From positions 372,001 through 436,000 of the forward strand of contig JAGKQI010000053.1 of assembly GCA_018806915.1 (NCBI GenBank): a stretch of DNA of 64,000 nucleotides. The letters are read 5' to 3'. Below the pieces are notes generated by a model. It was not told the DNA's origin, did not search any database, and saw nothing but the letters and a program-made list of their open reading frames with translations. Numbering within the stretch: position 1 is the first letter of the stretch; each line of letters opens with the position of its first letter. The stretch is from Phytophthora colocasiae (lineage: Eukaryota; Oomycota; Peronosporomycetes; Peronosporales; Peronosporaceae). Shown one piece after another: positions 6,202 to 53,545 of this stretch. A program made the position numbers and the translations under genes.

Positions 6202-6652
6202 TGTAATGGGTCTACCTAGACCTATTAGGTGGCGTACACGTGCGCTTACGTATAGGAGGAAGCGTGCAATTAGAATAGACTTAATTTAAGTATACTTATT
6301 TAAATAAGTATAATTAAATCAAATATAACTAAATTAAACTGCAAAATACCGTAAAATGAGAACTGTTATTGAATTTGGCATAAGCCAATTATGGACCTCC
6401 TAAAACTGTTTGTTATCTATTTCTAAAGGGTCTGCCAACGTGTGGTTGGCAGAAACTCTGCTCAGTGATTGGTAGAAATCCGTTACTTTCTACCAATAAT
6501 ATGCACAAATGCACCCAATAATGTGGTTCGCCCATGTATCCATTGGTGTGTACAGCACACCAAGGTCCGAGGCCCATTTCCAACCTCTAACAGTTATCCT
6601 AACTGTTAGAGTTACAAGTGGTACAACCACTTGTACGTGTAACCCCGTTACA
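6202..6652 (-). repeat. LTR 1 of family C (3' LTR of C1)
   Basis: It runs TGTAATGGG to CCGTTACA with terminal inverted TGTAA/TTACA. It is 451 bp against 460 bp for the other two copies; the difference is a 9-bp loss near 6513. It contains several of the short hairpins. The left neighbour is element A gag (GTTCCCCG), which is not repeated to the right of LTR 3. Confidence 0.92.
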
Positions 6653-6753
6653 CCATCCCCCCGTTAAGATTCGACGTATCGGTCTCGATACGTCAATCAA
6701 CAGAACTTGACAAGACCGTCAAGTTCCCGTGAGAAATCCGAGTTCATTTCGCA

Positions 6754-7745
6754 ATGGACTCGCCAACGCCCACGTCTCCGTCCACTTCTGCGGACGCGCA
6801 AGCCTCACCTGCTGCCTCTGCAGCAGGAACAACGACCTCAGCAGTGCCTACTAGCACTGTTGCTTCCAGCGGTTCGACAGAGAAGCTCTCTGTCGCCGTC
6901 TACCATGCTCTTCACAAGGAGAAGCAAGCGAAGAAGACTTCTTCTTCGTTAGCAGGGATCAAACACCCTGCTGGCGTATCGCGAGCGCGTTGCTGCAGCT
7001 CGCGATCGCTACCACTCGTGGTAAGTGTGAACGCCTCCATGATCTGTCCAAGGAAGCGGGGATCGCATGTGCCGTTCCCTTTGGCACACTCTGCCCGTGT
7101 TGCCAACCCTTGGCAACACGTCTCACCGAAAGTGATCTCCTGGGGTACACGGTCGTCGGTGTACCCGATCACATCAAGGAACTTCGTGGTCGTCTCGAGC
7201 CACGCGAAGCTCCGAGTGCTGTGGCTGACCGCAGCACTCCTCGTGCAGGGCTTACCCCTGCAAATTATGGTGGGCTTCGTACGCCCTCACCATTTCCGGA
7301 ACGTCCTCCATCAGGACGTTCCGCGGCTCCCATGTATCTCGATGGGGAGGAAATCCTCTCCAACGAATACGAAAACGAACCCCTTGAGAGTTTGTTCTCT
7401 TATGAGCCACGATCCGCTCCACAATCCAGCGGATCGCTCCACGCGCGTCGCGCAACGGCGGCGGAGGGGGTGGGAACACTCCCTCCGCATGGTCAACGCT
7501 ATGACCATGACGATCGTGCCCTGCACGATCGAGTTGCTGCGCTGGAGCAGACACAGAGCGCTGAGGTAGCTGCTCTGAAGCAGGAGGTTCGTGTCCTCCG
7601 TGCTGAGGTCTGCGAGGCAGCTCAGACTGCCTCGAACCTCTCGTCCGGTCTTGGGACGAGAGTGAACCGATTGATCGACCGTGTCGACGGTCTCGAGAAG
7701 GCCTTCCAGGCCTCTCGCACTCCTCAGTCGGACTACCAACCCTAG
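6754..7745 (+). pseudogene. antisense ORF of C1 (Ser/Pro/Ala-rich head, coiled coil)
   Basis: On the strand opposite to pol, an ATG 102 bp inside the 3' LTR opens a Ser/Thr/Ala/Pro-rich frame. It continues, after a frame break near 6950-7010, into a 252-codon frame ending at 7745. The C-terminal part (7516-7720) has heptad-like runs such as RVAALEQTQSAEVAALKQEV and then LIDRVDGLEKAF, which look like coiled coil. The last 490 bp overlap, antisense, the chromodomain and the Pro-rich linker of pol. C1 lacks 11 bp near 7010 that C2 has. I do not recognise the protein. It may be a real antisense gene, or partly an open shadow of pol; the upstream 500 bp do not overlap pol and support the first view. 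Confidence 0.5.
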
Positions 7746-10700
7746 GTAGTCCGTGCTGCACGTACGGCTTCAACCGCCCGACGTAGAAGGTCGGGTGGAG
7801 CCTCATGCTGGACGGTATGTCCAGCCGGTACGCGTTACCATGCCGTTCAAGTACTTTGAACGGCCCAATGAATCTTGGAGCAAGCTTGCTTGCTCCAAAG
7901 TCAGACACTGCATGTCTAAGTAGGTTTTGTGTAGCTAACAAAACTAATGAACCCTTTTCATTTGTGTTGCCTCTACCAACAGTATCAGCGTTCAGCTTCT
8001 GTCGATCGGCAGAAGCTGCGATAGCATCCTGGACAAACCGTATGACGGCTTGTCTTCGCTGGACAAAGTCTAGCGCACCCGAGCTGAATCCTTTCAGCTT
8101 GTCGCCCTTGTCAGCAGCAGGCCCTGCCTGCTCGCTATCATCTCTCATGTCTGTGCCCGGCACAGACATCGCGCGCTCGTTCCTGCTCGAACGAGACGTC
8201 GCACGCGTCACCGCAGCTGATAGTGTGCTGCTATCAGTTGCATTCTGCGGTTGTTCGGACGCAACCGTAGATCCTCCCCCACTTAAGGAGGAAGCTACCC
8301 TGCCGAGCATGCTCGGCAATCGTGGATGCCTCATGGCGTTCACGTAGAACGGTGTATGCCCTGTCGAGGCATGCACCGAGTTGTTGATGGCAAACTCTGC
8401 CATCGGCAAGCACTCGCTCCAGTGCGGGAACGAGTGAGCGTAGCTCTTCAACGTGTCACCCAGTACACGGTTGACACGTTCGGTCTGTCCGTCCGTCTGC
8501 GGATGATCCGCAGTCGACATTGATAATTGTGAACCAAGAAGTGTAAACACTTCTTGCCAGAACCGCGCTGTGAAGCGTGGATCACGGTCCGACACAATGT
8601 CGAGCGGCATGCCATGCGGTGTTTGAACACCATGTCAACAAACAGTCGCGCAGTCTGCGCGGCTGTAACAGTAGCCGGGACGGCAGCAAGATGAACCATC
8701 TTGCTGAATCTGTCCACAAAGACAACGATGCCCGTCCTCCGCTTGCTGTCAGGCGGAAGACCGAAGACAAAGTCCATGGACATGGACTCACAAACACTCC
8801 GACGGAGTCGGTAGTGATTGAAGAGGAGCCTGCGAGAACTGCGCAGGCATCACGCGTTGATAAACCTCGCAAGCATGTACGTACTTGCGCACCCACTTGT
8901 ACTGGTGGTGCCAGTAGAAGTCACGCGTGAGAAGAGTGTATGTCTTCTCACGACCCGGATGCCCTGCCGTGGGGGCTTCGTGATACTCGAACATGATCCT
9001 CAACCGGAGGTCATGATCATTCGGAACGACAATGCGATCCGCATTGTCGTCTACTGCACTGTACAACATTAGGCCTTCGGGTACACGATAGCGGTGTACA
9101 CGAGCTCGAAGATGAGGGGTTAGCTTCCGACGTGCCCCGTCGGAAGGTGCTGCGAGGAACTCCAGCAGCCCCTTCGCGTCTGCATCCCTTGCATACGCGT
9201 TCTTCACGTCGTCAATCAACGTTGACGACGGCACACTTGTCCTCACGACGCCAACAGCGTTGGCGTCGACCGTCTCCGCATAGTCAGGTCGACGCGATAA
9301 CGCGTCGGCCACTACATTGAGTCTTCCGGGTTCGTACTCCACCCGGAAGTTGTACTCCGCGAAGAAGGACAACCATCTCGCCATACGTTGCGAGATGTGC
9401 GGCGACTTAATCGCCGTACGCAATGACGCGTGGTCTGTATAGACCACGAACGGTCTACTCCCAAGTAGATACACTCGGAACTTTGCGAGTGCATACTTCA
9501 TGGCAAGGAGCTCCTTGTCATGTACGGGATAGTTACGCTCAGCTGGCTTCAGCTGACGCGATTGATAATAAACTACACGATCACGCTCTTCGTGATCGTG
9601 TTGCATCAATGCACATCCGATTGCAAAGTCGGATGCATCGCACACTACGTGGAATGGACGATCTTGGTCCGCCACGGCCAAGATCGGCGCTTCAGTCAAG
9701 CCCTGCTTGACTGCACCGAATGCCTCCTCGCACTCGGTCGTCCAAATCCATTCAGCTTCTTTCTTAAGAAGCTGTGACAACGTCCGAATCTTGCCCGCAT
9801 AGTTGTCCACGTACTTGCACAAGTACGTGGCAAGCCCAAGGAACTGCCTCAGTTCCTTCACATTGGATGGCGTGGGCCATTCATTGATCACTCTGACCTT
9901 CTCTGGGTCAGGGCGCACGCCGTCTTTCCCCACGAGACACCCCAGCACGGGTATCTCGCTCGCCCCGAAGATACACTTCTTCAGGTTCGCATAGAGCTTA
10001 TGTTTCCTCATAAGCTCTAGCAGCTTCCGGAGATGCACCTTGTGTATCTCAATGTCCGTCTTCCCGTTCCCAGACCGGCTGTGGACGAACACGTCGTCGA
10101 AGTAGCTCGGTGCGAAGTCGCGCACCGAGCGCAATAGATGTGTCACGCATCTATTGAACGTCGCAGGGGCGTTCTTAAGCCCCTGTGGCATGGCGAGCCA
10201 CTCCCAAAGCATACCGCTTGGAGTGCTTACCGCTGTGAGAGGGATGTCCCTCTCACGCATGAGGATCTGATAGAATCCATCACGCAGATCTAGAGCACTG
10301 AAGATAGTGCTCAAGGCCATCGAATCGATGATAGCATCTTTTCGCGGTATCGGCGTCTGCGCCGGTATCGTCGCATCGTTCAACTTGTTGTACGCATGAA
10401 CGATGCGCCAGCCGCCCTGTGGTTTCTTAACACAGAACGTTGGGGCACTGTGCGGGGACTTTGACTCCCGCACTTGACCTGCAAGACGACGACTTTCAAA
10501 GAAGTCGTCGATCGCTTGCACTTGTTCACGCGGCAGTGACCACTGCCATGTAACACAGTACTTCGTGCTCGGCACGAGATCAATCTCGTGCTGTACGCCC
10601 TTGTCCTTCGGAAGCTCCGAAGGAATCTCGTCCGGGAGTACATCCTTGTACTCCCGCAGAATCTCGTAATAGGGACTCGACTTCAACGAGTCCCAACTCT

Positions 10701-11979
10701 GCTCCTCGAAGCGTTGCTTCTTGGTCTTCGCACTGAGGGAGTCATCACCCTCAGTGATCCCATCGACGACGAGCTGCTTCAGCTCTTCGGCCTCGCGCTC
10801 CACTCTCTCGATATCCGAGAGAATGCAAATTTGTTCGATGCGTCCATCATACAAGTCTCGCGCGAAGCGCTTCCAACTCATCGTTGGAAGTGCGGTCAAC
10901 GCCGACGCACTCGTCGGCGGATTCTCCAACCGCATCCTCTGGTACTGTAACCCAGTACCAGTACGTGTCAAGACGTTCAACGTCTCGACACTCGGTGTCT
11001 GCACTGCAGATACACCCGTCTCAGTCCCGGACTGAGACTCGCGCAGCTCCCTGAGCTTGCGCCGCGAAGGTCTACCGTGGAGCCCGGCTCCAGGTGCTCC
11101 ACGTCCAAGGCATCGCACCTTGGACGGGACGTTATCGCAATCGTCAGCGAATTTCTTCCGCTGACTCGCACTATCAAGCCCTGCTTGAGTGCCGCTCATC
11201 GCGTGCAGCGCTGCTGCACGTGAGCACGCAGGTTGTTCGGGTGCTGGGCGTTTGCAACCGCCAGCACCTCCTGCCGCGCAGTCGGTTCCCTGAACCGCTG
11301 CGCCTCCATCCGCTCCCGGAGCGGATGAAGCAACCGCATCGTCGACTCCCGGAGTCGACGTGCTCTCGCTAGCTTCCTGCGCTAGCAAATGTTCGCTTGT
11401 ACACATATCGTCAGCTCCCAGAGCTGACGCACGATCGCTAGTTCCCGGAACTAGCAGCGAACGTTCGCTTGTACACGCATCATCAGCTCCCGGAGCTGAT
11501 GCACGATCGCTAGTTCCCAGAACTAGCAGCGACGCGCCAGTGGCGTCAGCTCCCAGAGCTGACGCACGCCTTTCGGTTCCCCGAGTATTATTTGCTTCGT
11601 CAACTCCCAGAGTTGACGCGACGTCGTCGGCGCGACCCTTGGGGGCTTGAAGTACCTCCAAGGATACCGGTAATACCGGTATTTTACCTTCTCTCAGGTG
11701 AATGCGATTCACCTGACCATCACTCATGTGACAAACATCATTCAGATGTTTATGCGTCAGGTGATTCACATTCACCTGACCATCACTCATGTGACCTCGA
11801 CCCTTCGGCTCAGATTTCTGAGTCGACACACATTTTCTCCCAACGACTCTCGGAGTCGTTGATGGTCGCCGGCAGCGATCGGAGGCAGCGGCGGCCGCTG
11901 CTGCCTCAACTGGGGATCCACATGCACCGGCCGGTGCATGTGCAGCACTGTTTTGGGGCCATCGCTCTCTGTCGCGCAT
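7252..11979 (-). pseudogene. pol of C1: linker, RT, RNase H, integrase, chromodomain
   Basis: The long frame 8788-11979 (1063 codons) holds a repeat-rich linker, the RT with catalytic SYFDDVFVHS, and one RNase H domain (VVCDASDFAIGCALMQHD). It runs up to the zinc-binding head of integrase (HEAPTAGHPGREKTY, CEVYQR). The frame 7252-8610 continues with integrase (VSDRDPRF, TDGQTERVNR), a Pro-rich linker and a C-terminal chromodomain (IVERIVAHKR, then RIRWRGFPPHRDTWEP). Two small insertions relative to C2, CG near 8618 and one base near 8790, push the integrase core out of frame between them, so the copy is broken. In an intact element this polyprotein makes and integrates the cDNA, with the chromodomain steering it to marked chromatin. 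Confidence 0.9.
11370..11610 (-). repeat. in-frame tandem repeats in the C1 PR-RT linker
   Basis: The linker between protease and RT carries diverged repeats of about 20 residues built on LLVPGTSDRASALGADD. At DNA level they are strings of palindromes such as CTAGTTCC/GGAACTAG and GTCAGCTC/GAGCTGAC. The same block lies at 21276-21516 in C2. C2 also has an additional diverged unit near 20770-20930. Confidence 0.7.
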
Positions 11980-12491
11980 GTGTTGTTGAAGCGTACGAGC
12001 GTACGCTTCTCCCAGTTGATCACCGGGTCATGCCGTGCAAGCCACGGCATGCCTAATACCAAGTCGAACTTATCGTCTAGATCCAAGACGATAAGATCTT
12101 CTACAAACGTCCTTCGTTTGTAAGAAAAGCGCACACGGACTACGCGCTTCTCAGTCCTCACGGTGGCACCTGTTGCCAACCGCACCTCCAACACGCCGCG
12201 AGGCGTGTCGGCCTCTTCGAAGTCAAGCCTTCGAAGACTTCCCTGTCGAACAAAGTTGTTCGACGCGCCCGAGTCCACTAGGGCACGAAGAGAGTTCACT
12301 CTCTTCGACATCACGTTCACGATGACAAGGTTTGGCTTGTCATCTTGCAGCTTACAGCGAGAAACCTTCTCGCTGGGGGCAGCAGTCCTCATCGTCGCGT
12401 GTCCAAGCTCGACACGCGAGACTGCATCACCAGTAGGACGCCCCGCGTCTACTGGTCCTTGGCGTTTTTTGAACGCCCGCCCGCTGTGCAC
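11787..12491 (-). CDS. protease frame of C1 (retropepsin)
   Basis: The catalytic triplet is in RALVDSGASNNFVRQG, followed by the flap-like and core strands and the family signature LVLGMPWLARHDPVINW. The frame overlaps the end of gag (12449-12491) and is in the -1 frame to it, consistent with frameshift expression. In C1 two extra bases near 11948 (TTTTGG versus ACAG in C2) cut it from the pol linker. The protease domain itself is intact. It would cleave the Gag-Pol polyprotein. Confidence 0.85.
   Translation of the reverse strand: MHSGRAFKKRQGPVDAGRPTGDAVSRVELGHATMRTAAPSEKVSRCKLQDDKPNLVIVNVMSKRVNSLRALVDSGASNNFVRQGSLRRLDFEEADTPRGVLEVRLATGATVRTEKRVVRVRFSYKRRTFVEDLIVLDLDDKFDLVLGMPWLARHDPVINWEKRTLVRFNNTCATESDGPKTVLHMHRPVHVDPQLRQQRPPLPPIAAGDHQRLRESLGENVCRLRNLSRRVEVT
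12430..12470 (-). promoter_or_regulatory. -1 ribosomal frameshift signal, gag to PR (C1)
   Basis: On the minus strand the gag codons TCA AAA AAC (12464-12470 is A AAA AAC, a canonical slippery heptamer) are followed after eight bases by a stem: CCAGTAG-ACGC pairs with GCGT-(C)-CTACTGG around a GGG loop (12430-12455). The gag stop TAG lies in the stem. The protease frame is -1 to gag. Confidence 0.8.
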
Positions 12492-13345
12492 TTGCGTGCA
12501 TAGTGACCGATGTTACCACACAGGTAACATCGAACCTTGACGTTCTTACGCTGCTGTTGACCAGCAGTCGTAGCACTCGAGAGGTCGATAGGTTCCGGAC
12601 CTCCCGTCTTCACAACAGGACGCGCCGGCTTCGGCGCGTTCGCATGGAGTTTAGCTTGACGCCGGCTAAACTCCTCTTGCATTGCAAGGCTGATCGCCTC
12701 CTCGAGAGTATTCGGATACTCTCGAAAGAGATATGTTTTGACGGGACCATCTCTTAGTCCCTTCATGAACGTGACGACCTTGGTCGCCTCGTCGATCGGG
12801 TTGGCCACTATGTTCGATACCAAGTATCGAGCACGCTGGGCAAAGGTGTGAACATCATCCTTGCCCTGTTGCAGATCGAGAAACTCCGCTCTCGATCTGA
12901 ACTCGTTCTTCGGAGGTTCAAACGCAAGCTTGAGTTCCTCTTTGAACACCTCGTACGTGCCGAAGCACGTAGAATCCGAGAGTCGGCGCCCATAGGCCCA
13001 ACTCCTCGCACGTCCGCCAAGACATGACATGGCGAACGCGACCTTCGACATCGGATCGACGATACGTCGAGCCGCAACGGCTGTGTCGAGTTCGACAAGC
13101 CACCGAAGGAGGGTCTCGTCCTCCTTCCCCGTGTAGGTACTCACGTGGAGTTTCAACGACTCCACTCGTGGCTTCGGAGAAGCCACCGAGGCAGCAACAT
13201 CTCGTTGCTCCTTAACAATGTACCCCAGAGCAACACCGTGTTGCTCTGTCGGCGATAGCGTACGAAGCATCGTCGCTACCGCTGCCTCTCCAATGACTTG
13301 CGAGTCTTTGGAGAGCCTCCCACTCTGGGTCCGACAGGTGGGCAC
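12449..13345 (-). pseudogene. gag of C1
   Basis: The Retrotrans_gag core (TLLRWLVELDTAVAARR, then AFAMSCLGGRARSWA and DLQQGKDDVHTFAQRARYLV) is followed by a single CCHC knuckle CYLCGNIGHYARKC near the C-terminus. This part is open. The N-terminus differs from C2: two bases are missing near 13306 and there are further changes near 13370, so the proper start is out of frame and a TAG appears. The likely original start is the one seen in C2 at 23339. The product would be capsid plus nucleocapsid. Confidence 0.85.
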
Positions 13346-13480
13346 AGTCCGTGCGCGTCACGGACATGTGTAGTCCCAGTGGATCCCTGATCCATTGGGG
13401 GGTTCTCGACCCCGCGTTCGTATGACTCCATACGAACGAACTGCAGTCGGTCGTGGGACGGACTACAATGTGCTACCAGG

Positions 13481-13940
13481 TGTAATGGGTCTACCTAGAC
13501 CTATTAGGTGGCGTACACGTGCGCTTACGTGTATGAGGAAGCGTGCAATTAGAATAGACTTAATTTAAGTATACTTATTTAAAGAAGTATAATTAAATCA
13601 AATATAACTAAATTAAACTGCAAAATACCGTAAAATGAGAACTGTTATTGAATTTGGCATAAGCCAATTATGGACCTCCTAAAACTGTTTGTTATCTATT
13701 TCTAAAGGGTCTGCCAACGTGTGGTTGGCAGAAACTCTGCTCAATGATTGGTAGAAATCCGTTACTTTCTACCAATAATATGCACAAATGCACACGAACC
13801 ACCCAATAATGTGGTTCGCCCATGTATCCTTTGGTGTGTACAGCACACCAAGGTCTGAGGCCCATTTCCAACCTCTAACAGTTATCCTAACTGTTAGAGT
13901 TACAAGTGGTACAACCACTTGTACGTGTAACCCCGTTACA
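13481..13940 (-). repeat. LTR 2 of family C, shared by C1 and C2
   Basis: This 460-bp LTR serves as 5' LTR of C1 (PBS-like TGGTAGCAC on its left) and as 3' LTR of C2 (polypurine tract on its right at 13941-13952). There are no foreign flanks between C1 and C2, which is the product expected from recombination between two neighbouring insertions. Confidence 0.92.
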
Positions 13941-14041
13941 CCATCCCCCCGTTAAGATTCGACGTATCGGTCTCGATACGTCAATCAACAGAACTTGACA
14001 AGACCGTCAAGTTCCCGCGAGAAATCCGAGTTCATTTCGCA

Positions 14042-15044
14042 ATGGACTCGCCAACGCCCACGTCTCCGTCCGCTTCTGCGGACGCGCAAGCCTCACCTGC
14101 TGTTTCTGCAGCAGGAACAATAACCTCAGCAGTGCCTACTAGCACTGCTGCTTCCAGCGGTCCAACAGAGAAGCTCTCTGTCACCGTCTACCATGCTCTC
14201 CACAAGGAGAAGCAAGCGAAGAAGACTTCTTCTTCGCTAGCAGGGATCGAACACCCTGCTGGCGTATCGCGAGCGCGTTGCTGCAACTCGCGATCGCTAC
14301 TACACTTACACCACTCGTGGTAAGTGTGAGCGCCTCCATGATCAGTCCATGGAAGCGGGAATCCCATGTGCCGTTCCCTTTGGCACACCCTGTCCGTGTT
14401 GCCAACCCTTGGCAACACGTCTCACCGAAAGTGATCTCCTGGGGTACACGGTCGTCCGTGTACCCGATCACATCAAGGAACTCCGTGGTCGTATTGTGCC
14501 ACGCGAAGCTCCGAGTGCTGTGGCTGACCGCAGCACTCCTCGTGCAGGGCTTACCCCTGCAAATTATGGTGGGCTTCGTACGCCCTCACCATTTCCGGAA
14601 CGTCCTCCATCAGGACGTTCCGCGGCTCCCATGTATCTCGATGGGGAGGAAATCCTCTCCAACGAATACGAAAACGAACCCCTTGAGAGTTTGTTCTCTT
14701 ATGAGCCACGATCCGCTCCACAATCCAGCGGATCGCTCCACGCGCGTCGCGCAACGGCGGCGGAGGGGGTGGGAACACTCCCTCCGCATGGTCAACGCTA
14801 TGACCATGACGATCGTGCCCTGCACGATCGAGTTGCTGCGCTGGAGCAGACACAGAGCGCTGAGGTAGCTGCTCTGAAGCAGGAGGTTCGTGTCCTCCGT
14901 GCTGAGGTCTGCGAGGCAGCTCAGACTGCCTCGAACCTCTCGTCCGGTCTTGGGACGAGAGTGAACCGATTGATCGACCGTGTCGACGGTCTCGAGAAGG
15001 CCTTCCAGGCCTCTCGCACTCCTCAGTCGGACTACCAACCCTAG
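14042..15044 (+). pseudogene. antisense ORF of C2
   Basis: This is the counterpart of 6754-7745. The ATG at 14042 is again 102 bp inside the LTR, with the same Ser/Pro/Ala-rich start. Here an 11-bp stretch (near 14304) absent from C1 keeps the middle of the protein in frame with the coiled-coil part (up to 15044), but a stop TAG near 14242 still separates the head. A CAG|G just after this stop could be a splice acceptor, which would join the two parts; this is speculative. The end overlaps the pol chromodomain in antisense. Confidence 0.5.
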
Positions 15045-17732
15045 GTAGTCCGTGCTGCACGTACGGCTTCAACCGCCCGACGTAGAAGGTCGGGTGGAGC
15101 CTCATGCTGGACGGTATGTCCAGCCGGTACGCGTTACCATGCCGTTCAAGTACTTTGAACGGCCCAATGAATCTTGGAGCAAGCTTGCTTGCTCCAAAGT
15201 CAGACACTGCATGTCTAAGTAGGTTTTGTGTAGCTAACAAAACTAATGAACCCTTTTCGAATTCATTTGTGTTGCCTCTACCAACAGTATCAGCGTTCAG
15301 CTTCTGTCGATCGGCAGAAGCTGCGATAGCATCCTGGACAAACCGTATGACGGCTTGTCTTCGCTGGACAAAGTCTAGCGCACCCGAGCTGAATCCTTTC
15401 AGCTTGTCGCCCTTGTCAGCAGCAGGCCCTGCCTGCTCGCTATCATCTCTCATGTCTGTGCCCGGCACAGACATCGCGCGCTCGTTCCTGCTCGAACGAG
15501 ACGTCGCACGCGTCACCGCAGCTGATAGTGTGCTGCTATCAGTTGCATTCTGCGGTTGTTCGGACGCAACCGTAGATCCTCCCCCACTTAAGGAGGAAGC
15601 TACCCTGCCGAGCATGCTCGGCAATCGTGGATGCCTCATGGCGTTCACGTAGAACGGTGTATGCCCTGTCGAGGCATGCACCGAGTTGTTGATGGCAAAC
15701 TCTGCCATCGGCAAGCACTCGCTCCAGTGCGGGAACGAGTGAGCGTAGCTCTTCAACGTGTCACCCAGTACACGGTTGACACGTTCGGTCTGTCCGTCCG
15801 TCTGCGGATGATCCGCAGTCGACATTGATAACTGTGAACCAAGAAGTGTAAACACTTCTTGCCAGAACCGCGCTGTGAAGCGTGGATCACGGTCCGACAC
15901 AATGTCGAGCGGCATGCCATGGTGTTTGAACACCATGTCAACAAACAGTCGCGCAGTCTGCGCGGCTGTAACAGTAGCCGGGACGGCAGCAAGATGAACC
16001 ATCTTGCTGAATCTGTCCACAAAGACAACGATGCCCGTCCTCCGCTTGCTGTCAGGCGGAAGACCGAAGACAAAGTCCATGGACATGGACTGCCAACACT
16101 CCGACGGAGTCGGTAGTGATTGAAGAGGAGCCTGCGAGAACTGCGCAGGCATCACGCGTTGATAAACCTCGCAAGCATGTACGTACTTGCGCACCCACTT
16201 GTACTGGTGGTGCCAGTAGAAGTCACGCGTGAGAAGAGTGTATGTCTTCTCACGACCCGGATGCCCTGCCGTGGGGGCTTCGTGATACTCGAACATGATC
16301 CTCAACCGGAGGTCATGATCATTCGGAACGACAATGCGATCCGCATTGTCGTCTACTGCACTGTACAACATTAGGCCTTCGGGTACACGATAGCGGTGTA
16401 CACGAGCTCGAAGATGAGGGGTTAGCTTCCGACGTGCCCCGTCGGAAGGTGCTGCGAGGAACTCCAGCAGCCCCTTCGCGTCTGCATCCCTTGCATACGC
16501 GTTCTTCACGTCGTCAATCAACGTTGACGACGGCACACTTGTCCTCACGACGCCAACAGCGTTGGCGTCGACCGTCTCCGCATAGTCAGGTCGACGCGAT
16601 AACGCGTCGGCCACTACATTGAGTCTTCCGGGTTCGTACTCCACCCGGAAGTTGTACTCCGCGAAGAAGGACAACCATCTCGCCATACGTTGCGAGATGT
16701 GCGGCGACTTAATCGCCGTACGCAATGATGCGTGGTCTGTATAGACCACGAACGGTCTACTCCCAAGTAGATACACTCGGAACTTTGCGAGTGCATACTT
16801 CATGGCAAGGAGCTCCTTGTCATGTACGGGATAGTTACGCTCAGCTGGCTTCAGCTGACGCGATTGATAGTAGACTACACGATCACGCTCTTCGTGATCG
16901 TGTTGCATCAATGCACATCCGATTGCAAAGTCGGATGCATCGCACACTACGTGGAATGGACGATCTTGGTCCGCCACGGCCAAGATCGGCGCTTCAGTCA
17001 AGCCCTGCTTGACTGCACCGAATGCCTCCTCGCACTCGGTCGTCCAAATCCATTCAGCTTCTTTCTTAAGAAGCTGTGACAACGTCCGAATCTTGCCCGC
17101 ATAGTTGTCCACGTACTTGCACAAGTACGTGGCAAGCCCAAGGAACTGCCTCAGTTCCTTCACATTGGATGGCGTGGGCCATTCATTGATCACTCTGACC
17201 TTCTCTGGGTCAGGGCGCACGCCGTCTTTCCCCACGAGACACCCCAGCACGGGTATCTCGCTCGCCCCGAAGATACACTTCTTCAGGTTCGCATAGAGCT
17301 TATGTTTCCTCATAAGCTCTAGCAGCTTCCGGAGATGCACCTTGTGTATCTCAATGTCCGTCTTCCCGTTCTCAGACCGGCTGTGGACGAACACGTCGTC
17401 GAAGTAGCTCGGTGCGAAGTCGCGCACCGAGCGCAATAGATGTGTCACGCATCTATTGAACGTTGCAGGGGCATTCTTAAGCCCCTGTGGCATTACGAGC
17501 CACTCCCAAAGCATACCGCTTGGAGTGCTTACCGCTGTGAGAGGGATGTCCCTCTCACGCATGAGGATCTGATAGAATCCATCACGCAGATCTAGAGCAC
17601 TGAAGATAGTGCTCAAGGCCATCGAATCGATGATAACATCTTTTCGCGGTATCGGCGTCTGCGCCGGTATCGTCACATCGTTCAACTTGTTGTATGCATG
17701 AACGATGCGCCAGCCGCCCTGTGGTTTCTTAA
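14551..17732 (-). pseudogene. pol of C2, distal part: RT, RNase H, integrase, chromodomain
   Basis: One open frame of about 1060 codons runs from the RT fingers (GGWRIVHAYNKLND), through SYFDDVFVHS and the single RNase H, to a complete integrase (HEAPTAGHPGREKTY head; MDFVFG, SDRDPRF and QTERVNR core). It ends in the Pro-rich linker and chromodomain. The two small insertions that break C1 are absent. The frame begins artificially inside the piggyBac terminal repeat at 17763; the genuine upstream part resumes at 20206. Confidence 0.9.
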
Positions 17733-17751
17733 CCCCCCCAGCCCGAAGCCT

Positions 17752-17795
17752 TGTATTAGCCACGATAAGAAAAGCGTCTTATCGTGTCTAATACA
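17752..17795. repeat. subterminal hairpin of the piggyBac element
   Basis: TGTATTAGCCACGATAAG (17752-17769) pairs with CTTATCGTGTCTAATACA (17778-17795), 17 of 18 bases, loop of eight. The 15-mer TATCGTGTCTAATAC recurs at 19407-19421 and looser copies lie near 18484 and 18829. Subterminal repeats are often transposase sites. Confidence 0.65.
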
Positions 17796-18206
17796 GGATA
17801 AGGAATTTAGACTTGGTTTTTGTAAGGATGCATACAAAGTTCCTGTCAACTAGGGGAAGGTGATGTGTGTGCAGACGGGGGATCATGTGCAGAAAAGCTG
17901 GGCACGTGTACATGGGACGGATTTTAAAAATATTAGCTGAGAGAGGTAACGGGAAGCGCGCCAAGTACCTCCATTAGAACGTAAAGGTTTTTGGTACGCC
18001 AGACCAGACGGTTGGCTGTCATTCGAGATTTTGCGGGGAGAGAGTGATGTCGGCGTTTCGCCGTCGGTGGTCGGAGCTGCTCAAGGAAGGATGAAAGCGA
18101 CCGCGGGAGCTCGAGGCCGAGCACACGTGTTGCCACCCTCTGGACGAGCTCGACAAAGGTATTCTGCAGCGTTTAAAGCTGAATGTGCTGATTTCTGACC
18201 ACTATT

Positions 18207-19675
18207 GTGTTTATGCAGCCGATTCGGAGCGCCAGGAAGCAGAGAAGGCAACAGAGCAGCCCTCAAACAGGCAAACTCGTGGTGGAAGTGACGGTAATGC
18301 GTGTGATTTATGTTGTCACGCGTCCAAATACTAACAATACCGATATTCTAGATGTCGGACAACGCCTGGCATCGACTCATTCAACGAATTACTCTACCGA
18401 GCTGGGACACCGAGGACAAGAGTCGGCTGGTTTCGAAGACCAAGGTATAATTTTCATTCCTACTTATCAAGTACGATACATGTTAACATATTTCTTGTAT
18501 CGTGTACGGCACCATCGGTTAGCCCTGCCGTTCTTCTCCTATCGCAACGCCACAAGCACCGGTAAGCAATGGTACGCGCGCTATTGATTACGTGATGTTG
18601 TGTTTGCTTAGCTGTGGTTACAGGTAACCTTACGCAAGAGCAACGCAACTTGGATGCAGCCTTTGCAGAAGTTGCTTCCGACGATGATACGGAGACACGA
18701 ATGGGCCCCACATCACCTCATATATCGAACAGTGATAGTGGTAGCGACTCCGCTATTGCAAGCGCAGAAGAGTCTGCTGAAGACTTCGAGTCTGTAGAAT
18801 CCCACGTCAACAGGTTTGATATCGTGTCTGATACAAGTTTAGTGTACACGATAACAATTTCTAACCTGTATTATATCAGCAGATATCAACGTCACAAAGG
18901 CTGGTAGCTTGTTGCCAGACTACACCGCGCTAGAGTCGGAGGGAGAGAACGATGACGGGTTCAGTAATAAACAAGACGTGGAGTTTGGAACTCAGCTGCC
19001 TTTTTCCTATATGGAAGGCCCATTCGAGGCCCGCCAACCACATGCAATGCAAGACGACTACCCGGACCTTTTTGATGGTTTATACGGTCCCAGTGAGGAA
19101 GCTTTGGCCGCCGCCACTAGCCCCGTGAATGCACTGTTCTACTTCATGATACCGCGTCTGTGGGAAGATATTGCTACTACCATGATACCGGATACAAACC
19201 ACCCCCTATCATGGCTTTCGGCGAAGCTATGTTACCGTCGAGAGCGTCGTTCAACCGTATGCGAGTGTATATGAAGGACAAGCCGCACAAATACGGTACT
19301 AAGCTGTTTATGCTGTGCTGTTCGTACACTGCTTACTGCATTCGGAAGGTACACGGGCGTGTCTGCTGACACGCTCGTTTTTTTTTTTTTGACAACTAAA
19401 GTCTGTTATCGTGTCTAATACTGATACGTGTTCCTGCTATCTTGTATGGTACAGGTTTGAAGCTTACTTAGGTAAAGCAGGAACAATAAATGGCGTATCA
19501 CTGCGTGAAGAGAGAACTGGTCCTGTGGCGGTAGTGCGCAATCTGCGTGCGGCTTTTGGAAACCAGCGGCCTAACACAATGCGACTCATCGTCATGGATC
19601 GCTTCTATACTTCCATCCCGCTAGCATTGGAGCTACTTATAGCGTTGGGACCGTGGTGACAGGTCTGGACACTCA
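18207..19675 (+). pseudogene. piggyBac-like transposase, exon-like pieces
   Basis: Coding pieces in different frames form a recognisable transposase. An acidic N-terminal region leads to SPVNALFYFMIPRLWEDIA (to about 19170), then FGEAMLPSRASFNRMRVYM and a KPHKYGTKLFMLCCSYTAYCIRK stretch (19212-19348). Last comes FEAYLGKAG with VVRNLRAAFGNQRP and LIVMDRFYTSIPLALELL (19450-19650), which contains one expected catalytic Asp. A GT-AG intron at about 19349-19449 would join the last two pieces; another may lie near 18813-18882. The remaining catalytic region and the Cys-rich tail were not found, so the copy looks truncated and inactive. Confidence 0.75.
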
Positions 19676-20205
19676 AGTTGTGCCTGACAAGAACAAGAAG
19701 AAGATAGTGCGCGTGCGGGTGACGGTCGGTGGGGAAGTGTCTGACAACGATGGGACGCCACGACGCCGTCGAGTGGATGCAGATGCCAGCAATCCCTGAA
19801 TGCTGGCGGGAAGGTGGTCACGCCATCAACGATTGCTGGAAGCGTAGAGATTTTGACTTGGTTTGAATATACGCATTGAGCACTGATTTGTGAGTCTAAA
19901 TATCGACAAAAATAGCCATGTCTCTTTCACATGAGCGCATGGTCTCTATTTCTACTGACATTTCTCTCGCCGCTCTGGACATGATAGATCGCACATACCC
20001 TGTATAATGTCCATTCACCGCACATGATAAGTACATCGGGACACGATAGCAACGCTGCCCACATCAAGGGGTGGGGGTTCGCATGAGTTTTGTAACCGGA
20101 CAGGATAAGTTTTATCTTTGATTTAGTAGCAAAACCCTACCCCTTCTATACACGATAGTTCAGTCGATGGGGCGCAATTTTTTTCCTTCGGGCTTGTGGG
20201 GTTAA

Positions 20206-21519
20206 CACAGAACGTTGGGGCACTGTGCGGGGACTTTGATTCCCGCACTTGACCTGCAAGGCGACGACTTTCAAAGAAGTCGTCGATCGCTTGAACTTGT
20301 TCACACGGCAGTGGCCACTGCCGTGTAACACAGTACTTCGTGCCCGGCACGAGATCAATCTCGTGCTGTACGCCCTTGTCCTTCGGAAGCTCCGAAGGAA
20401 TCTCGTCCGGGAGTACATCCTTGTACTCCCGCAGAATCTCGTAATAGGGACTCGACTTCAACGAGTCCCAACTCTGCTCCTCGAAGCGCTGCTTCTTAGT
20501 CTTCGCACTGAGGGAGTCATCACCCTCAGTGATCCCATCGACGACGAGCTGCTTCAGCTCTTCGGCTTCGCGATCCACTCTCTCGATATCCGAGAGAATG
20601 CAAATTTGTTCGATGCGTCCATCGTACAAGTCCCGCGCGAAGCGCTTCCAACTCATCGTTGGAAGTGCGGTCAACGCCGACGCACACGTCGGCGGATTCT
20701 CCAACCGCATCCTCTGGTACTGTAACCCAGTACCAGTACGTGTCAAGACGTTCAACGTCTCGACACTCGGTGTCTGCCCTGCAGAAACACCCTCCTCAGT
20801 CAGGACTGAGACTCACACAGCTCACTGAGCTGGTGCCGCGCGCTCTGATACTGTACCGCAGTATCAGTTCGTGTCAAGACGTCCAACGCCTTGACACTCG
20901 GTGTCTATACCGCAGACACACCCTCCACAGTCACGGACTGGGACTCGCAAAGCTCCCTGAGCTTGCGCCGCGAAGGTCTGCCATGGAGCTCAGCTCCAGG
21001 CGCTCCACGTCCAAGGCATCCCACCTTGGACGGGACTTTATCGCAATCGTCAGCGAATTTCTTCCGCTGACTCGCACTATCAAGCCCTGCTTGAGTGCCG
21101 CTCATCGCGTGCAGCGCTGCTGCACGTGAGCACGCAGGTTGTTCGGGTGCTGGGCGTTTGCAACCGCCAGCACCTCCTGCCGCGCAGTCGGTTCCCTGAA
21201 CCGCTGCGCCTCCATCCGCTCCCGGAGCGGATGAAGCAACCGCATCGTCGACTCCCGGAGTCGACGTGCTCTCGCTAGCTTCCTGCGCTAGCAAATGTTC
21301 GCTTGTACACATATCGTCAGCTCCCAGAGCTGACGCACGATCGCTAGTTCCCGGAACTAGCAGCGAACGTTCGCTTGTACACGCATCATCAGCTCCCGGA
21401 GCTGATGCACGATCGCTAGTTCCCAGAACTAGCAGCGACGCGCCAGTGGCGTCAGCTCCCAGAGCTGACGCACGCCTTTCGGTTCCCCGAGTATTATTTG
21501 CTTCGTCAATTCCCAGAGT
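20206..21519 (-). pseudogene. pol of C2, proximal part: linker and RT start
   Basis: This is the continuation of the C2 pol after the piggyBac insertion. It holds the RT entry (PYYEILREYKDVLPDEIPSE and CEQVQAIDDFFESRRLAGQ) and, upstream, the Ala/Ser/Gly-rich linker with repeats. The frame changes near 20755-20905, where C2 carries an extra diverged copy of a roughly 150-bp unit. It ends at a TGA at 21518-21520 where C1 has a serine codon. Confidence 0.8.
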
Positions 21520-22395
21520 TCACGCGACGTCGTCGGCGCGACCCTTGGGGGCTTGAAGTACCTCCAAGGATACCGGTAATACCGGTATTTTACCTTCTCT
21601 CAGGTGAATGCGATTCACCTGACCATCACTCATGTGACAAACATCATTCAGATGTTTATGCGTCAGGTGATTCACATTCACCTGACCATCACTCATGTGA
21701 CCTCGACCCTTCGGCTCAGATTTCTGAGTCGACACACATTTTCTCCCAACGACTCTCGGAGTCGTTGATGGTCGCCGGCAGCGATCGGAGGCAGCGGCGG
21801 CCGCTGCTGCCTCAACTGGGGATCCACATGCACCGGCCGGTGCATGTGCAGCACTGACAGGGCCATCGCTCTCTGTCGCGCATGTGTTGTTGAAGCGTAC
21901 GAGCGTACGCTTCTCCCAGTTGATCACCGGGTCATGCCGTGCAAGCCACGGCATGCCTAATACCAAGTCGAACTTATCGTCTAGATCCAAGACGATAAGA
22001 TCTTCTACAAACGTCCTTCGTTTGTAAGAAAAGCGCACACGGACTACGCGCTTCTCAGTCCTCACGGTGGCACCTGTTGCCAACCGCACCTCCAACACGC
22101 CGCGAGGCGTGTCGGCCTCTTCGAAGTCAAGCCTTCGAAGACTTCCCTGTCGAACAAAGTTGTTCGACGCGCCCGAGTCCACTAGGGCACGAAGAGAGTT
22201 CACTCTCTTCGACATCACGTTCACGATGACAAGGTTTGGCTTGTCATCTTGCAGCTTACAGCGAGAAACCTTCTCGCTGGGGGCAGCAGTCCTCATCGTC
22301 GCGTGTCCAAGCTCGACACGCGAGACTGCATCACCAGTAGGACGCCCCGCGTCTACTGGTCCTTGGCGTTTTTTGAACGCCCGCCCGCTGTGCAC
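21520..22395 (-). CDS. protease frame of C2 with linker
   Basis: Retropepsin with RALVDSGASNNF and LVLGMPWLARHDPVINW, continuing without a break into the Ala-rich linker that contains two copies of a HMSDGQVN motif. It overlaps gag by 43 bp in the -1 frame. It ends at the TGA that replaced TCA; two substitutions there also destroy a palindrome that is perfect in C1 (11599-11617). Confidence 0.85.
   Translation of the reverse strand: MHSGRAFKKRQGPVDAGRPTGDAVSRVELGHATMRTAAPSEKVSRCKLQDDKPNLVIVNVMSKRVNSLRALVDSGASNNFVRQGSLRRLDFEEADTPRGVLEVRLATGATVRTEKRVVRVRFSYKRRTFVEDLIVLDLDDKFDLVLGMPWLARHDPVINWEKRTLVRFNNTCATESDGPVSAAHAPAGACGSPVEAAAAAAASDRCRRPSTTPRVVGRKCVSTQKSEPKGRGHMSDGQVNVNHLTHKHLNDVCHMSDGQVNRIHLREGKIPVLPVSLEVLQAPKGRADDVA
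22334..22374 (-). promoter_or_regulatory. -1 ribosomal frameshift signal, gag to PR (C2)
   Basis: The arrangement is identical to C1: A AAA AAC at 22368-22374 (minus strand), eight-base spacer, 11-bp stem with one bulged C and a GGG loop at 22334-22359. The gag stop is inside the stem. Confidence 0.8.
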
Positions 22396-23339
22396 TTGCG
22401 TGCATAGTGACCGATGTTACCACACAGGTAACATCGAACCTTGACGTTCTTACGCTGCTGTTGACCAGCAGTCGTAGCACTCGAGAGGTCGATAGGTTCC
22501 GGACCTCCCGTCTTCACAACAGGACGCGCCGGCTTCGGCGCGTTCGCATGGAGTTTAGCTTGACGCCGGCTAAACTCCTCTTGCATTGCAAGGCTGATCG
22601 CCTCCTCGAGAGTATTCGGATACTCTCGAAAGAGATATGTTTTGACGGGACCATCTCTTAGTCCCTTCATGAACGTGACGACCTTGGTCGCCTCGTCGAT
22701 CGGGTTGGCCACTATGTTCGATACCAAGTATCGAGCACGCTGGGCAAAGGTGTGAACATCATCCTTGCCCTGTTGCAGATCGAGAAACTCCGCTCTCGAT
22801 CTGAACTCGTTCTTCGGAGGTTCAAACGCAAGCTTGAGTTCCTCTTTGAACACCTCGTACGTGCCGAAGCACGTAGAATCCGAGAGTCGGCGCCCATAGG
22901 CCCAACTCCTCGCACGTCCGCCAAGACATGACATGGCGAACGCGACCTTCGACATCGGATCGACGATACGTCGAGCCGCAACGGCTGTGTCGAGTTCGAC
23001 AAGCCACCGAAGGAGGGTCTCGTCCTCCTTCCCCGTGTAGGTACTCACGTGGAGTTTCAACGACTCCACTCGTGGCTTCGGAGAAGCCACCGAGGCAGCA
23101 ACATCTCGTTGCTCCTTAACAATGTACCCCAGAGCAACACCGTGTTGCTCTGTCGGCGATAGCGTACGAAGCATCGTCGCTACCGCTGCCTCTCCAATGA
23201 CTTGCGAGAGTCTTTGGAGAGCCTCCCACTCTGGGTCCGACAGGTGGGCACAGTCCGTGCGCGTCACGGACATGTGTGGGGTCCCAGTGGATCCCTGATC
23301 CATTGGGGGGTTCTCGACCCCGCGTTCGTATGACTCCAT
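22353..23339 (-). CDS. gag of C2 (complete)
   Basis: This is a 328-residue protein starting at the ATG at 23339, about 50 bp inside the 5' LTR. It has a short acidic head (SDPEWEALQRLSQVIGEAAV), the capsid core (LLRWLVELDTAVAARRIVDP through DLQQGKDDVHTFAQRARYLV) and one CCHC knuckle CYLCGNIGHYARKC at residues about 304-317. The length is typical of a small chromovirus gag. The last 43 bp overlap the protease. This is the best-preserved gag of family C in the window and defines the start that C1 has lost. Confidence 0.88.
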   Translation of the reverse strand: MESYERGVENPPMDQGSTGTPHMSVTRTDCAHLSDPEWEALQRLSQVIGEAAVATMLRTLSPTEQHGVALGYIVKEQRDVAASVASPKPRVESLKLHVSTYTGKEDETLLRWLVELDTAVAARRIVDPMSKVAFAMSCLGGRARSWAYGRRLSDSTCFGTYEVFKEELKLAFEPPKNEFRSRAEFLDLQQGKDDVHTFAQRARYLVSNIVANPIDEATKVVTFMKGLRDGPVKTYLFREYPNTLEEAISLAMQEEFSRRQAKLHANAPKPARPVVKTGGPEPIDLSSATTAGQQQRKNVKVRCYLCGNIGHYARKCTAGGRSKNAKDQ

Positions 23340-23388
23340 ACGAACGAACTGCAGTCGGTCGTGGGACGGACTACAATGTGCTACCAGG

Positions 23389-23848
23389 TGTAATGGGTCT
23401 ACCTAGACCTATTAGGTGGCGTACACGTGCGCTTACGTGTATGAGGAAGCGTGCAATTAGAATAGACTTAATTTAAGTATACTTATTTAAAGAAGTATAA
23501 TTAAATCAAATATAACTAAATTAAACTGCAAAATACCGTAAAATGAGAACTGTTATTGAATTTGGCATAAGCCAATTATGGACCTCCTAAAACTGTTTGT
23601 TATCTATTTCTAAAGGGTCTGCCAACGTGTGGTTGGCAGAAACTCTGCTCAATGATTGGTAGAAATCCGTTACTTTCTACCAATAATATGCACAAATGCA
23701 CAGGAACCACCCAATAATGTGGTTCGCCCATGTATCCTTTGGTGTGTACAGCACACCAAGGTCTGAGGCCCATTTCCAACCTCTAACAGTTATCCTAACT
23801 GTTAGAGTTACAAGTGGTACAACCACTTGTACGTGTAACCCCGTTACA
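23389..23848 (-). repeat. LTR 3 of family C (5' LTR of C2)
   Basis: It is 460 bp, TGTAATGGG to CCGTTACA. To its left the minus strand reads TGGTAGCAC (PBS-like). To its right element A resumes at the protease (AAGATCAATCATG), about 310 bp further on, by comparison with B, than where A was left at 6201. Confidence 0.92.
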
Positions 23849-53521: not shown

Positions 53522-53545
53522 TCAAGTGGTGATCGCGATCGCCTG

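Follow-up and report, generated by a model that had tools for sequence, protein, structure and literature searches.

The window analysed here is a stretch of 64,000 nucleotides from the 92.5 Mb genome of Phytophthora colocasiae (contig JAGKQI010000053.1). Its minus strand, to which all the features below belong, contains C1 (6201..13940), an LTR retrotransposon that is assigned to Ty3/gypsy by the order gag, protease (PR), reverse transcriptase (RT), RNase H and integrase (IN) between LTRs with TGTAA...TTACA ends, and to the chromodomain-bearing subgroup by a chromodomain at the integrase end (Pfam Chromo, 6.3e-12 in 7252..8634). The 5′ LTR (13480..13940) is common to the neighbouring element, C2, and both this LTR and the 3′ LTR (6201..6652) hold six hairpins with arms of at least 8 bp. 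Between them lie the gag ORF (12449..13357), the aspartic protease ORF (11787..12512), a pol ORF covering the linker, RT, RNase H and the integrase zinc-binding domain (8788..12027) and an ORF for the C-terminal part of the integrase, with SH3 and chromodomain (7252..8634). The PR-RT linker includes internal repeats (11301..11624). C2 is found in two parts, namely C2a, its 3′ part (13941..17733), and C2b, its 5′ part including the outer LTR at 23388-23848 (20202..23848), which carry 35 and 39 hairpins with arms of at least 9 bp, respectively. The preliminary description of this DNA took 6202-23848 to be family C throughout, which is not the case, because 17734-20201 is an insertion, with a single hairpin of arm 8 bp or more. 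Family C has a high copy number and is young-looking: 40 of 40 scored matches, among 914 first-look candidates, were at least 98% identical over 1.4 kb, and the copies are mostly 97-98% identical. Thirty of these 40 were taken as loci, the first being C1 itself and the second C2.

The most conspicuous characteristic of C is its density of short perfect inverted repeats. In the 7,740 bp of C1 there are 134, 100, 77 and 38 of them with loops of up to 10 nt and arms of at least 7, 8, 9 and 10 bp, respectively, while 20 dinucleotide shuffles gave means of 4.7, 1.4, 0.1 and 0.0. A set of 99 non-overlapping hairpins (arm at least 8 bp, loop up to 10) can be drawn from the element. The excess is also observed when the encoded proteins are held constant, as pol has 37 hairpins with arms of at least 9 bp against a mean of 0.45 and a maximum of 2 in 100 synonymous-codon shuffles, and the corresponding numbers are 5 against 0.07 in gag, 11 against 0.24 in PR and 11 against 0.18 in the integrase-chromodomain ORF (the PR and pol frames share 241 bp, so a few hairpins enter both counts). 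By contrast, F has none against a shuffle mean of 0.19 (100 shuffles). Each of the nine blocks that make up the rest of the window, F among them, has at most one hairpin of arm 9 bp or more and between 1 and 4 of arm 8 bp or more, and 15 samples of the genome are near the background level, save one that holds a fragment of C. The excess that had been claimed for C was thus borne out by a scan against both kinds of shuffle, and its absence elsewhere was found in F and in every other block; the A, B and copia elements, which had been named individually, are covered as blocks and not by name. With both controls far below the observed numbers, and with the rest of the same window near background, an origin by chance, base composition or codon bias has a negligible probability and is discarded.

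Hairpins are present in every part of C, coding and non-coding alike (LTR, gag, PR, RT, IN and the 3′ region), as had been proposed. The spacing of one every 40-60 bp that had also been proposed agrees with the mean, which is 57 nt from centre to centre (134 non-overlapping hairpins, arm at least 7 bp, loop up to 12, covering 38% of C1), but the density is uneven: for arms of at least 8 bp it goes from 8.7 per kb in the leader and gag to 18.6 per kb in PR and the linker, and there are 18 hairpin-free stretches of 75 nt or more. All six hairpins singled out at the outset were found, with arms of 11, 11, 10, 10, 12 and 9 bp. For instance, the one given as 9576-9600 with 10-bp arms is in fact at 9575..9601, with an arm of 11 bp and a loop of 5 over RNase H codons; that at 9807..9830 (arm 11, loop 2) lies over the codons for ATYLCKYV, that at 10105..10130 (arm 10, loop 6) over RT codons, and that at 11919..11942 has no loop and an arm of 12 bp, a length that no perfect arm surpasses. 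No preference for codon phase was observed among the hairpins of pol (15, 15 and 15 of 45). It could be argued that small palindromic elements, comparable to those known in some bacterial genes, were inserted into an ordinary retrotransposon, as the hairpins are numerous and alike in size. However, their arm sequences are unrelated by eye, the internal repeats of the linker excepted, and in the conserved RT and RNase H blocks the residues that the arms cover have aligned counterparts in F and in homologues, and we consider this origin very improbable.

The hairpins are also uniform in stability. Most arms are of 8-12 bp and most loops of 1-8 nt, with about -13 kcal/mol per hairpin as RNA, and the spread of a simple pairing energy is lower than in all of 5000 permutations, indicating a narrow stability range. 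Longer arms are AT-richer (rho -0.36 between arm length and arm G+C, p=2.5e-4, n=99), and the outermost pair is G-C in 75% of the hairpins. The arm edges are sharp, as only 22-36 of 99 positions pair from the second flanking base on, where about 25 are expected. In 200-nt windows, folding energies relative to shuffled controls have a mean z of -4.8 in C (10 windows) and -1.8 in F (8 windows), and minimum-energy folds of 400-nt windows recover 734 of 818 hairpin pairs in the sense strand and 766 of 796 in the antisense strand.

The preliminary description offered a structured genomic RNA as one possible object of selection, and the strand signals bear on this point. Among the one-mismatch hairpins of C1, no G-U bias was observed in the sense strand (A-C 12, G-U 7, other 8), nor was there any among mismatches fixed in the family in the part covered by copies (A-C 6, G-U 5, other 3). 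As imperfect stems show no G-U excess over A-C, we doubt that selection acts on the sense RNA alone, a reading that we regard as unsupported. It might be proposed, instead, that selection acts on DNA, the element benefiting, for example in integration or recombination, from hairpins in its single-stranded cDNA or from cruciforms once the copy is double-stranded; this would agree with the absence of the sense G-U bias and with a folding excess that is equal on both strands (z of -4.8 and -5.0). Nevertheless, nothing links the hairpins to any DNA step, and one-sided arm variants counted per copy lean to RNA (98 G-U and 49 A-C cells, these counts being raw for mutation bias and shared descent). 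Additionally, sense positions 428-502 (the end of the LTR and the presumed primer site) and 7269-7287 (the presumed polypurine tract) are free of hairpins, and the first in-frame ATG of gag, at sense position 671, lies within a hairpin-free stretch, which would suit a constraint on RNA or reverse transcription, although three free sites out of three is weak, since 62% of C1 is hairpin-free. Overall, we find selection at the DNA level rather unlikely.

Variation among copies gives an indication of whether the arms are kept. At the sites of pol where synonymous change is possible, shared variants are found at 2 of 159 sites in arms, 39 of 482 in spacers and 4 of 41 in loops (arm against spacer, p=0.001), while singletons in the same set are equally frequent in arms and spacers (20/159 and 59/482, p=0.89). 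As this hairpin set derives from a single copy, it is biased against the detection of variants in arms; when hairpins that are perfect in any copy are used, the depletion of shared variants becomes smaller but persists (7/225 against 34/411, p=0.011), and singletons again show no difference (p=0.80). With the any-copy set the depletion is weaker when all sites of pol are taken together (p=0.042; 14/635 against 48/1177) and is not observed at those that change the protein (7/410 against 14/766). When singletons are counted along the entire 4.4-kb stretch, the one-copy set also gives a deficit in arms (74/1019 against 322/3131, p=0.004), but there is no such deficit with the any-copy set (p=0.63). 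The shared variants that do fall in arms are concentrated at helix ends (5/94, compared with 6/682 in the middle of the arm, p=0.006). In all these counts, sites with fewer than 20 copies were excluded and the numbers of arm variants are small; the tandem-repeat region was left out of the analyses of imperfect stems and helix ends and of one any-copy comparison. Variation among LTR copies is very low.

The preliminary description had proposed a search for compensatory changes across copies. Within the element, the arms of the eight paralogous hairpins of the linker repeats covary: 72 of 72 cells are paired, including two G-U cells at the outermost pair, and 6 of 9 pairs are changed on both sides, while slid controls are 22-54% paired. 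These hairpins are tandem repeats, and exchange from unit to unit can carry whole arms. Outside the repeats, one compensated pair was observed among the copies, in a 7-bp hairpin at 11078; the longer arms (8 bp or more) carry 13 shared variants, none of which belongs to a compensated pair. Several changes were observed in 58 of 2137 copy-hairpins, a count that pools kinds of change and that is confused by paralogous exchange in the repeat region, and with copies so similar the events are few.

The main alternative to selection, also put forward in the preliminary description, is template switching by the reverse transcriptase, that is, quasi-palindrome correction, in which the nascent strand folds back and copies itself, making imperfect repeats perfect. 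Protein selection would then retain only the tolerable products, and the hairpins would be the by-product of a habit of this family's enzyme. The process has a precedent in yeast genes (PMC8604942) and has been proposed for nematomorph mitochondrial genes (PMC6649704). Sharp arm edges and imperfect stems without G-U preference would be expected from it, and the depletion in arms, being at the level of the lineage and not after insertion, suits correction at each cycle of reverse transcription, which would likewise purge such variants. By contrast, inversions of the loop, a by-product of template switching, are few among the 1781 copy-loops, with 4 cases confined to two loops of 2 nt: that at 7875 (TT to AA, in two copies) is one plausible event, while at 10532 a single change from GC, the commoner loop, may account for the cases observed. 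Neither the lack of compensated pairs in the longer arms outside the repeats nor the fall in G+C as arms lengthen favours this mechanism, and F, whose pol is 39% identical to that of C, has no arms of 9 bp or more. We therefore consider template switching unlikely on balance, yet the most credible of the alternatives.

The excess, the sharp edges, the covariation in the repeats, the lineage-level depletion in arms and the narrow stability range are direct observations, and the data suggest that the hairpins are maintained and not drifting. As shared variants are depleted in arms at the lineage level with normal singletons, arm length is traded for G+C, variants are biased to helix ends and loop inversions are few, we incline towards selection for the hairpin structure itself. 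We regard it as probable, though far from assured, that family C has been selected to fold into short stable Watson-Crick hairpins along its full length while keeping its proteins. The arms would have been built by point mutations, mostly synonymous with some conservative amino-acid changes, and purifying selection in the replicating lineage would remove pair-breaking variants in mid-arm and spare the loops. The selected molecule would be the single-stranded element, most likely the genomic RNA and possibly also the first-strand cDNA. More speculatively, the benefit might lie in compaction of the RNA, by which target sites would be concealed from the small RNAs of the host, which in Phytophthora are of 21 and 25 nt (PMC3804510), the stems perhaps being too short for dicing. 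The stronger form of this reading, in which the RNA is a chain of hairpins of fixed stability that shields against small RNAs with undiceable stems, a new strategy of genome architecture that arose within the C lineage of oomycetes once it had separated from a diverged relative in the same genome, seems to us improbable.

Some RNA viruses have ordered RNA structure at the scale of the genome, and C resembles them in a (computed) folding energy far below that of shuffled controls; it differs in being an LTR retrotransposon with discrete, local, perfect hairpins and no G-U excess. In nematomorph mitochondria, conserved coding genes contain perfect inverted repeats with arms of up to 142 bp, nearly all the long repeats having perfect arms, and template switching is named as one possible mechanism (PMC6649704). 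In C, perfect repeats likewise lie in conserved coding sequence with both arms coding, but there are about 100 short hairpins (up to 12 bp) per element, in a nuclear retrotransposon, also in non-coding sequence and with a narrow stability range. In yeast, template switching homogenises short inverted repeats through individual events that are scattered over genes and accompanied by spacer inversions (PMC8604942). Arms of at least 7 bp, short spacers and a location in coding DNA are common to both cases, but in C the array is dense and extends over the full element, and its copies show few inversions of the spacer. Another comparison is Chronos, a group of oomycete Ty3/gypsy elements that have a chromodomain, as C does, and an extra archaeal-type RNase H domain (PMC5348765); the words "hairpin" and "inverted" are absent from the main text of its description. 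Unlike Chronos, the pol ORF of C shows no second RNase H, as Pfam at E 0.001 gives RT_RNaseH families only. Our literature search found no published account of such a hairpin-dense retrotransposon.

If the hairpins are maintained by selection, C would rank with the densest cases known to us in which a structural code overlaps a protein code. It would show that the synonymous sites of a mobile element can be almost as constrained as its amino-acid sites, and it would offer a test bed for the reasons why pervasive local structure evolves in genomes, be it packaging, protection from RNA silencing or the biology of reverse transcription. If, instead, they derive from template-switch correction, a mutational process able to rewrite a genome would be unusually active here.

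Among relatives, no related element was found in the viral contigs scanned, and one diverged relative in the same genome, a single and perhaps decayed copy, largely lacks the trait. In P. cinnamomi, P. sojae, P. cactorum and P. ramorum, the best protein matches have 82-86% identity. Comparisons of proteins give only hints that the trait may be older than the split of Phytophthora species and came with some amino-acid change. Counts of amino-acid replacements, for 21 hand-picked homologues among 120 listed, point in the same direction and are not significant. Feasible sites were counted in 115 of 121 protein records, C itself included. In the 28 homologues of at least 80% identity, hairpins were feasible at 87% of the 18 real sites and 70% of 20 unrealised ones, so that the test is not significant for close homologues (p=0.14). 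The corresponding values are 50% and 59% for the 35 homologues at 74-80% (p=0.26), 15% and 45% for the 10 below 70% (p=0.11), and 23% and 49% for the 41 at 70-74%, where the difference is significant (p=0.013).

By its proteins, family C is an ordinary Ty3/gypsy chromodomain LTR retrotransposon, as Pfam recognises gag, aspartic protease, RT, RNase H, integrase zinc domain, SH3 and chromodomain, and its closest pol homologues (82-86% identity) come from Phytophthora cinnamomi, sojae, cactorum and ramorum. The window holds a stack of nested LTR retrotransposons, including two copies of C on the minus strand, C1 (6201-13940) and C2 (13480-23848). Perfect inverted repeats with a loop of up to 10 are extremely dense in C1: 100 have arms of 8 bp or longer and 77 of 9 bp or longer, compared with 1.4 and 0.1 in dinucleotide shuffles, while the nine remaining blocks of the window, including the comparison element F, contain 1-4 and 0-1, respectively. 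In C pol, 37 hairpins with arms of 9 bp or longer were found against a mean of 0.45 and a maximum of 2 in 100 synonymous-codon shuffles. For arms of 8 bp or longer, the rate in C1 is 12.9 per kb, and every part of the element contributes: the 5′ LTR (13.0 per kb), leader and gag (8.7), PR and linker (18.6), RT to IN zinc domain (12.2), IN-chromo (9.8), 3′ region (13.4) and 3′ LTR (13.3). By contrast, ten random 10-kb samples of the 92.5 Mb genome have 0.30 per kb once C-like sequence is set aside, and five further samples were similar, except for one C LTR fragment. These figures confirm the preliminary description, according to which hairpins fill coding and non-coding parts of C alike and are not evident in F.

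The hairpins of C1 have a narrow range of predicted stability. Their number drops as arms lengthen from 5 to 8 and climbs to another maximum at 9 (39 hairpins), and no arm is longer than 12. When loops of 0-60 were allowed, 100 of the 115 matches with arms of at least 8 had loops of 0-10 (mode 3), and pairing beyond the arms was near chance from the second outside base (22-36 of 99, with about 25 expected). Longer arms are AT-richer (rho -0.36 for arm length against G+C, p=2.5e-4, n=99) and, consequently, the predicted RNA hairpin energy stays at about -12.8 kcal/mol (sd 2.4); none of 5000 permutations gave so small a spread in a simple pairing energy. A G-C pair forms the outer end of the stem in 75% of the hairpins. 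Among 134 hairpins, 45% have this pair with C on the 5′ side and G on the 3′ side, close to double the 24% with the reverse orientation. Hairpins dominate the local folds of both strands (734 of 818 pairs in sense, 766 of 796 in antisense), with mean folding-energy z values of -4.8 and -5.0 (10 windows), compared with -1.8 and -0.5 in F (8 windows), -0.2 at 49262-54588 (7 windows) and -2.2 in the insertion at 17734-20201 (3 windows).

Maintenance was assessed in 30 loci of the C pol region (C1 and C2 included; mostly 97-98% identical in the longest match), comparing each site with C1. At sites of the pol core where a synonymous change is possible, singletons were as frequent in arms (20/159) as in spacers between hairpins (59/482, p=0.89), whereas variants shared by at least two copies were rarer in arms (2/159 versus 39/482, p=0.001; loops 4/41). 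Spacer sites at which no change is silent carried shared variants in 18/909 cases, so that synonymous arm sites seem to be under roughly the same constraint as protein-changing ones. As defining hairpins on a single copy biases this test, it was redone with hairpins perfect in any copy: the difference in shared variants persisted (7/225 versus 34/411, p=0.011; singletons p=0.80), with 14/766 at protein-changing spacer sites. Over the whole 4.4 kb, singletons were also rarer in arms with the one-copy set (74/1019 versus 322/3131, p=0.004), but not with the any-copy set leaving out the repeat region (107/1186 versus 248/2598, p=0.63). Where arms do carry shared variants, these lie preferentially at the ends of the helix (5/94 versus 6/682 in mid-arm).

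The depletion of shared synonymous variants partly supports the earlier suggestion of selection for a structured genomic RNA, but does not single out the sense strand. Selection on sense RNA alone should leave more G-U than A-C among imperfect stems, and no such excess was found in C1 (A-C 12, G-U 7, other 8) or in family-fixed imperfect stems of the part with copies (6, 5 and 3). Among new arm mutations there is a slight tilt to G-U (28:22 versus 96:124 in spacers, p=0.12), as there is among shared ones (7:3 versus 45:45, p=0.32). Thus, selection may act on both RNA strands or on DNA, or the arms may be corrected without selection.

Such correction, in which template switching by RT perfects quasi-palindromes, ranks second. 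It predicts perfect arms and action only during replication of the lineage, and part of the data agree. However, it should also yield loop inversions, and 4 of 1781 copy-loops were inverted, with one plausible event in two copies; compensated variants, also expected, were absent outside repeats in arms of at least 8; and the trade-off between arm length and G+C is no obvious product of copying. At 7875-7898, the loop reads AA for TT in two genomic copies (L015 and L024), a possible inversion by template switching. Several changes were seen in 58 of 2137 copy-hairpins, a count that does not separate kinds of change.

Outside the repeats, one compensated pair was seen, in a 7-bp hairpin at 11078; further paired changes occur within the linker repeats. 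There, eight paralogous hairpins have diverged on both sides with 72 of 72 cells paired (70 Watson-Crick, 2 outermost G-U) and double changes in 6 of 9 pairs, compared with 22-54% pairing in slid controls (arms matched to shifted partners). The number of pair types was not above shuffles (8 versus 9.0), and exchange between repeat units may contribute.

As to function, Phytophthora small RNAs have size peaks of 21 and 25 nt, the second of them mainly TE-derived (PMC3804510), and stems of at least 6 bp occur in 18.6% of all C1 25-mers versus 2.6% in F; one may therefore speculate that the hairpins hide the element from small RNAs or spoil them. The same paper describes inverted repeats as potent small-RNA sources, which would count against evasion if the short C stems were processed.

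Judging from a single, possibly decayed, copy of a relative on contig C28 of the same genome, most of the trait seems to have arisen within the C lineage. The pol of this relative shows 57-60% identity to C across C pol residues 514-1078 and 48% across 373-555 (integrase 39%), and its 5.3 kb coding region has 7 hairpins with arms of at least 8 (1.3 per kb). Ten-pair arms with 0, 1 and 2 mismatches number 1, 5 and 19 (0.07, 1.3 and 11.5 expected), a modest excess of imperfect arms, and 44 mappable C hairpin sites pair in 36% of cells versus 22-27% with slid partners. A protein-homologue test that was not significant hints at the trait being present in closer relatives from other species. Near this hairpin-poor relative lies a piece of family-C LTR (L046:1-652), 94-95% identical, with most hairpins kept. 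Hairpin-paved LTR retrotransposons were undescribed among the titles and abstract openings of the open-licence matches listed, which is no proof of absence; the nearest cases among them are the coding palindromes of nematomorphs (PMC6649704) and the template-switch repeats of yeast (PMC8604942).

The LTR at 13480-13940 is common to C1 and C2, so the order LTR-body-LTR-body-LTR is that of a complex element. C2 is broken by the insertion at 17734-20201, which has TTAA at each junction or at most one base away; its ends are inverted repeats that start with CCCC and contain AGCCCGAAG. It resembles a piggyBac-type DNA transposon. Finally, an antisense ORF of 296 aa (6855-7745, plus strand) overlies the integrase end and the 3′ region of C. 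It has 298 database matches and, of the 120 listed, all that carry a species name are hypothetical or uncharacterized Phytophthora proteins (42-81% identical); the ORF could be a genuine antisense gene, or conservation of the sense strand may have produced it as a by-product.
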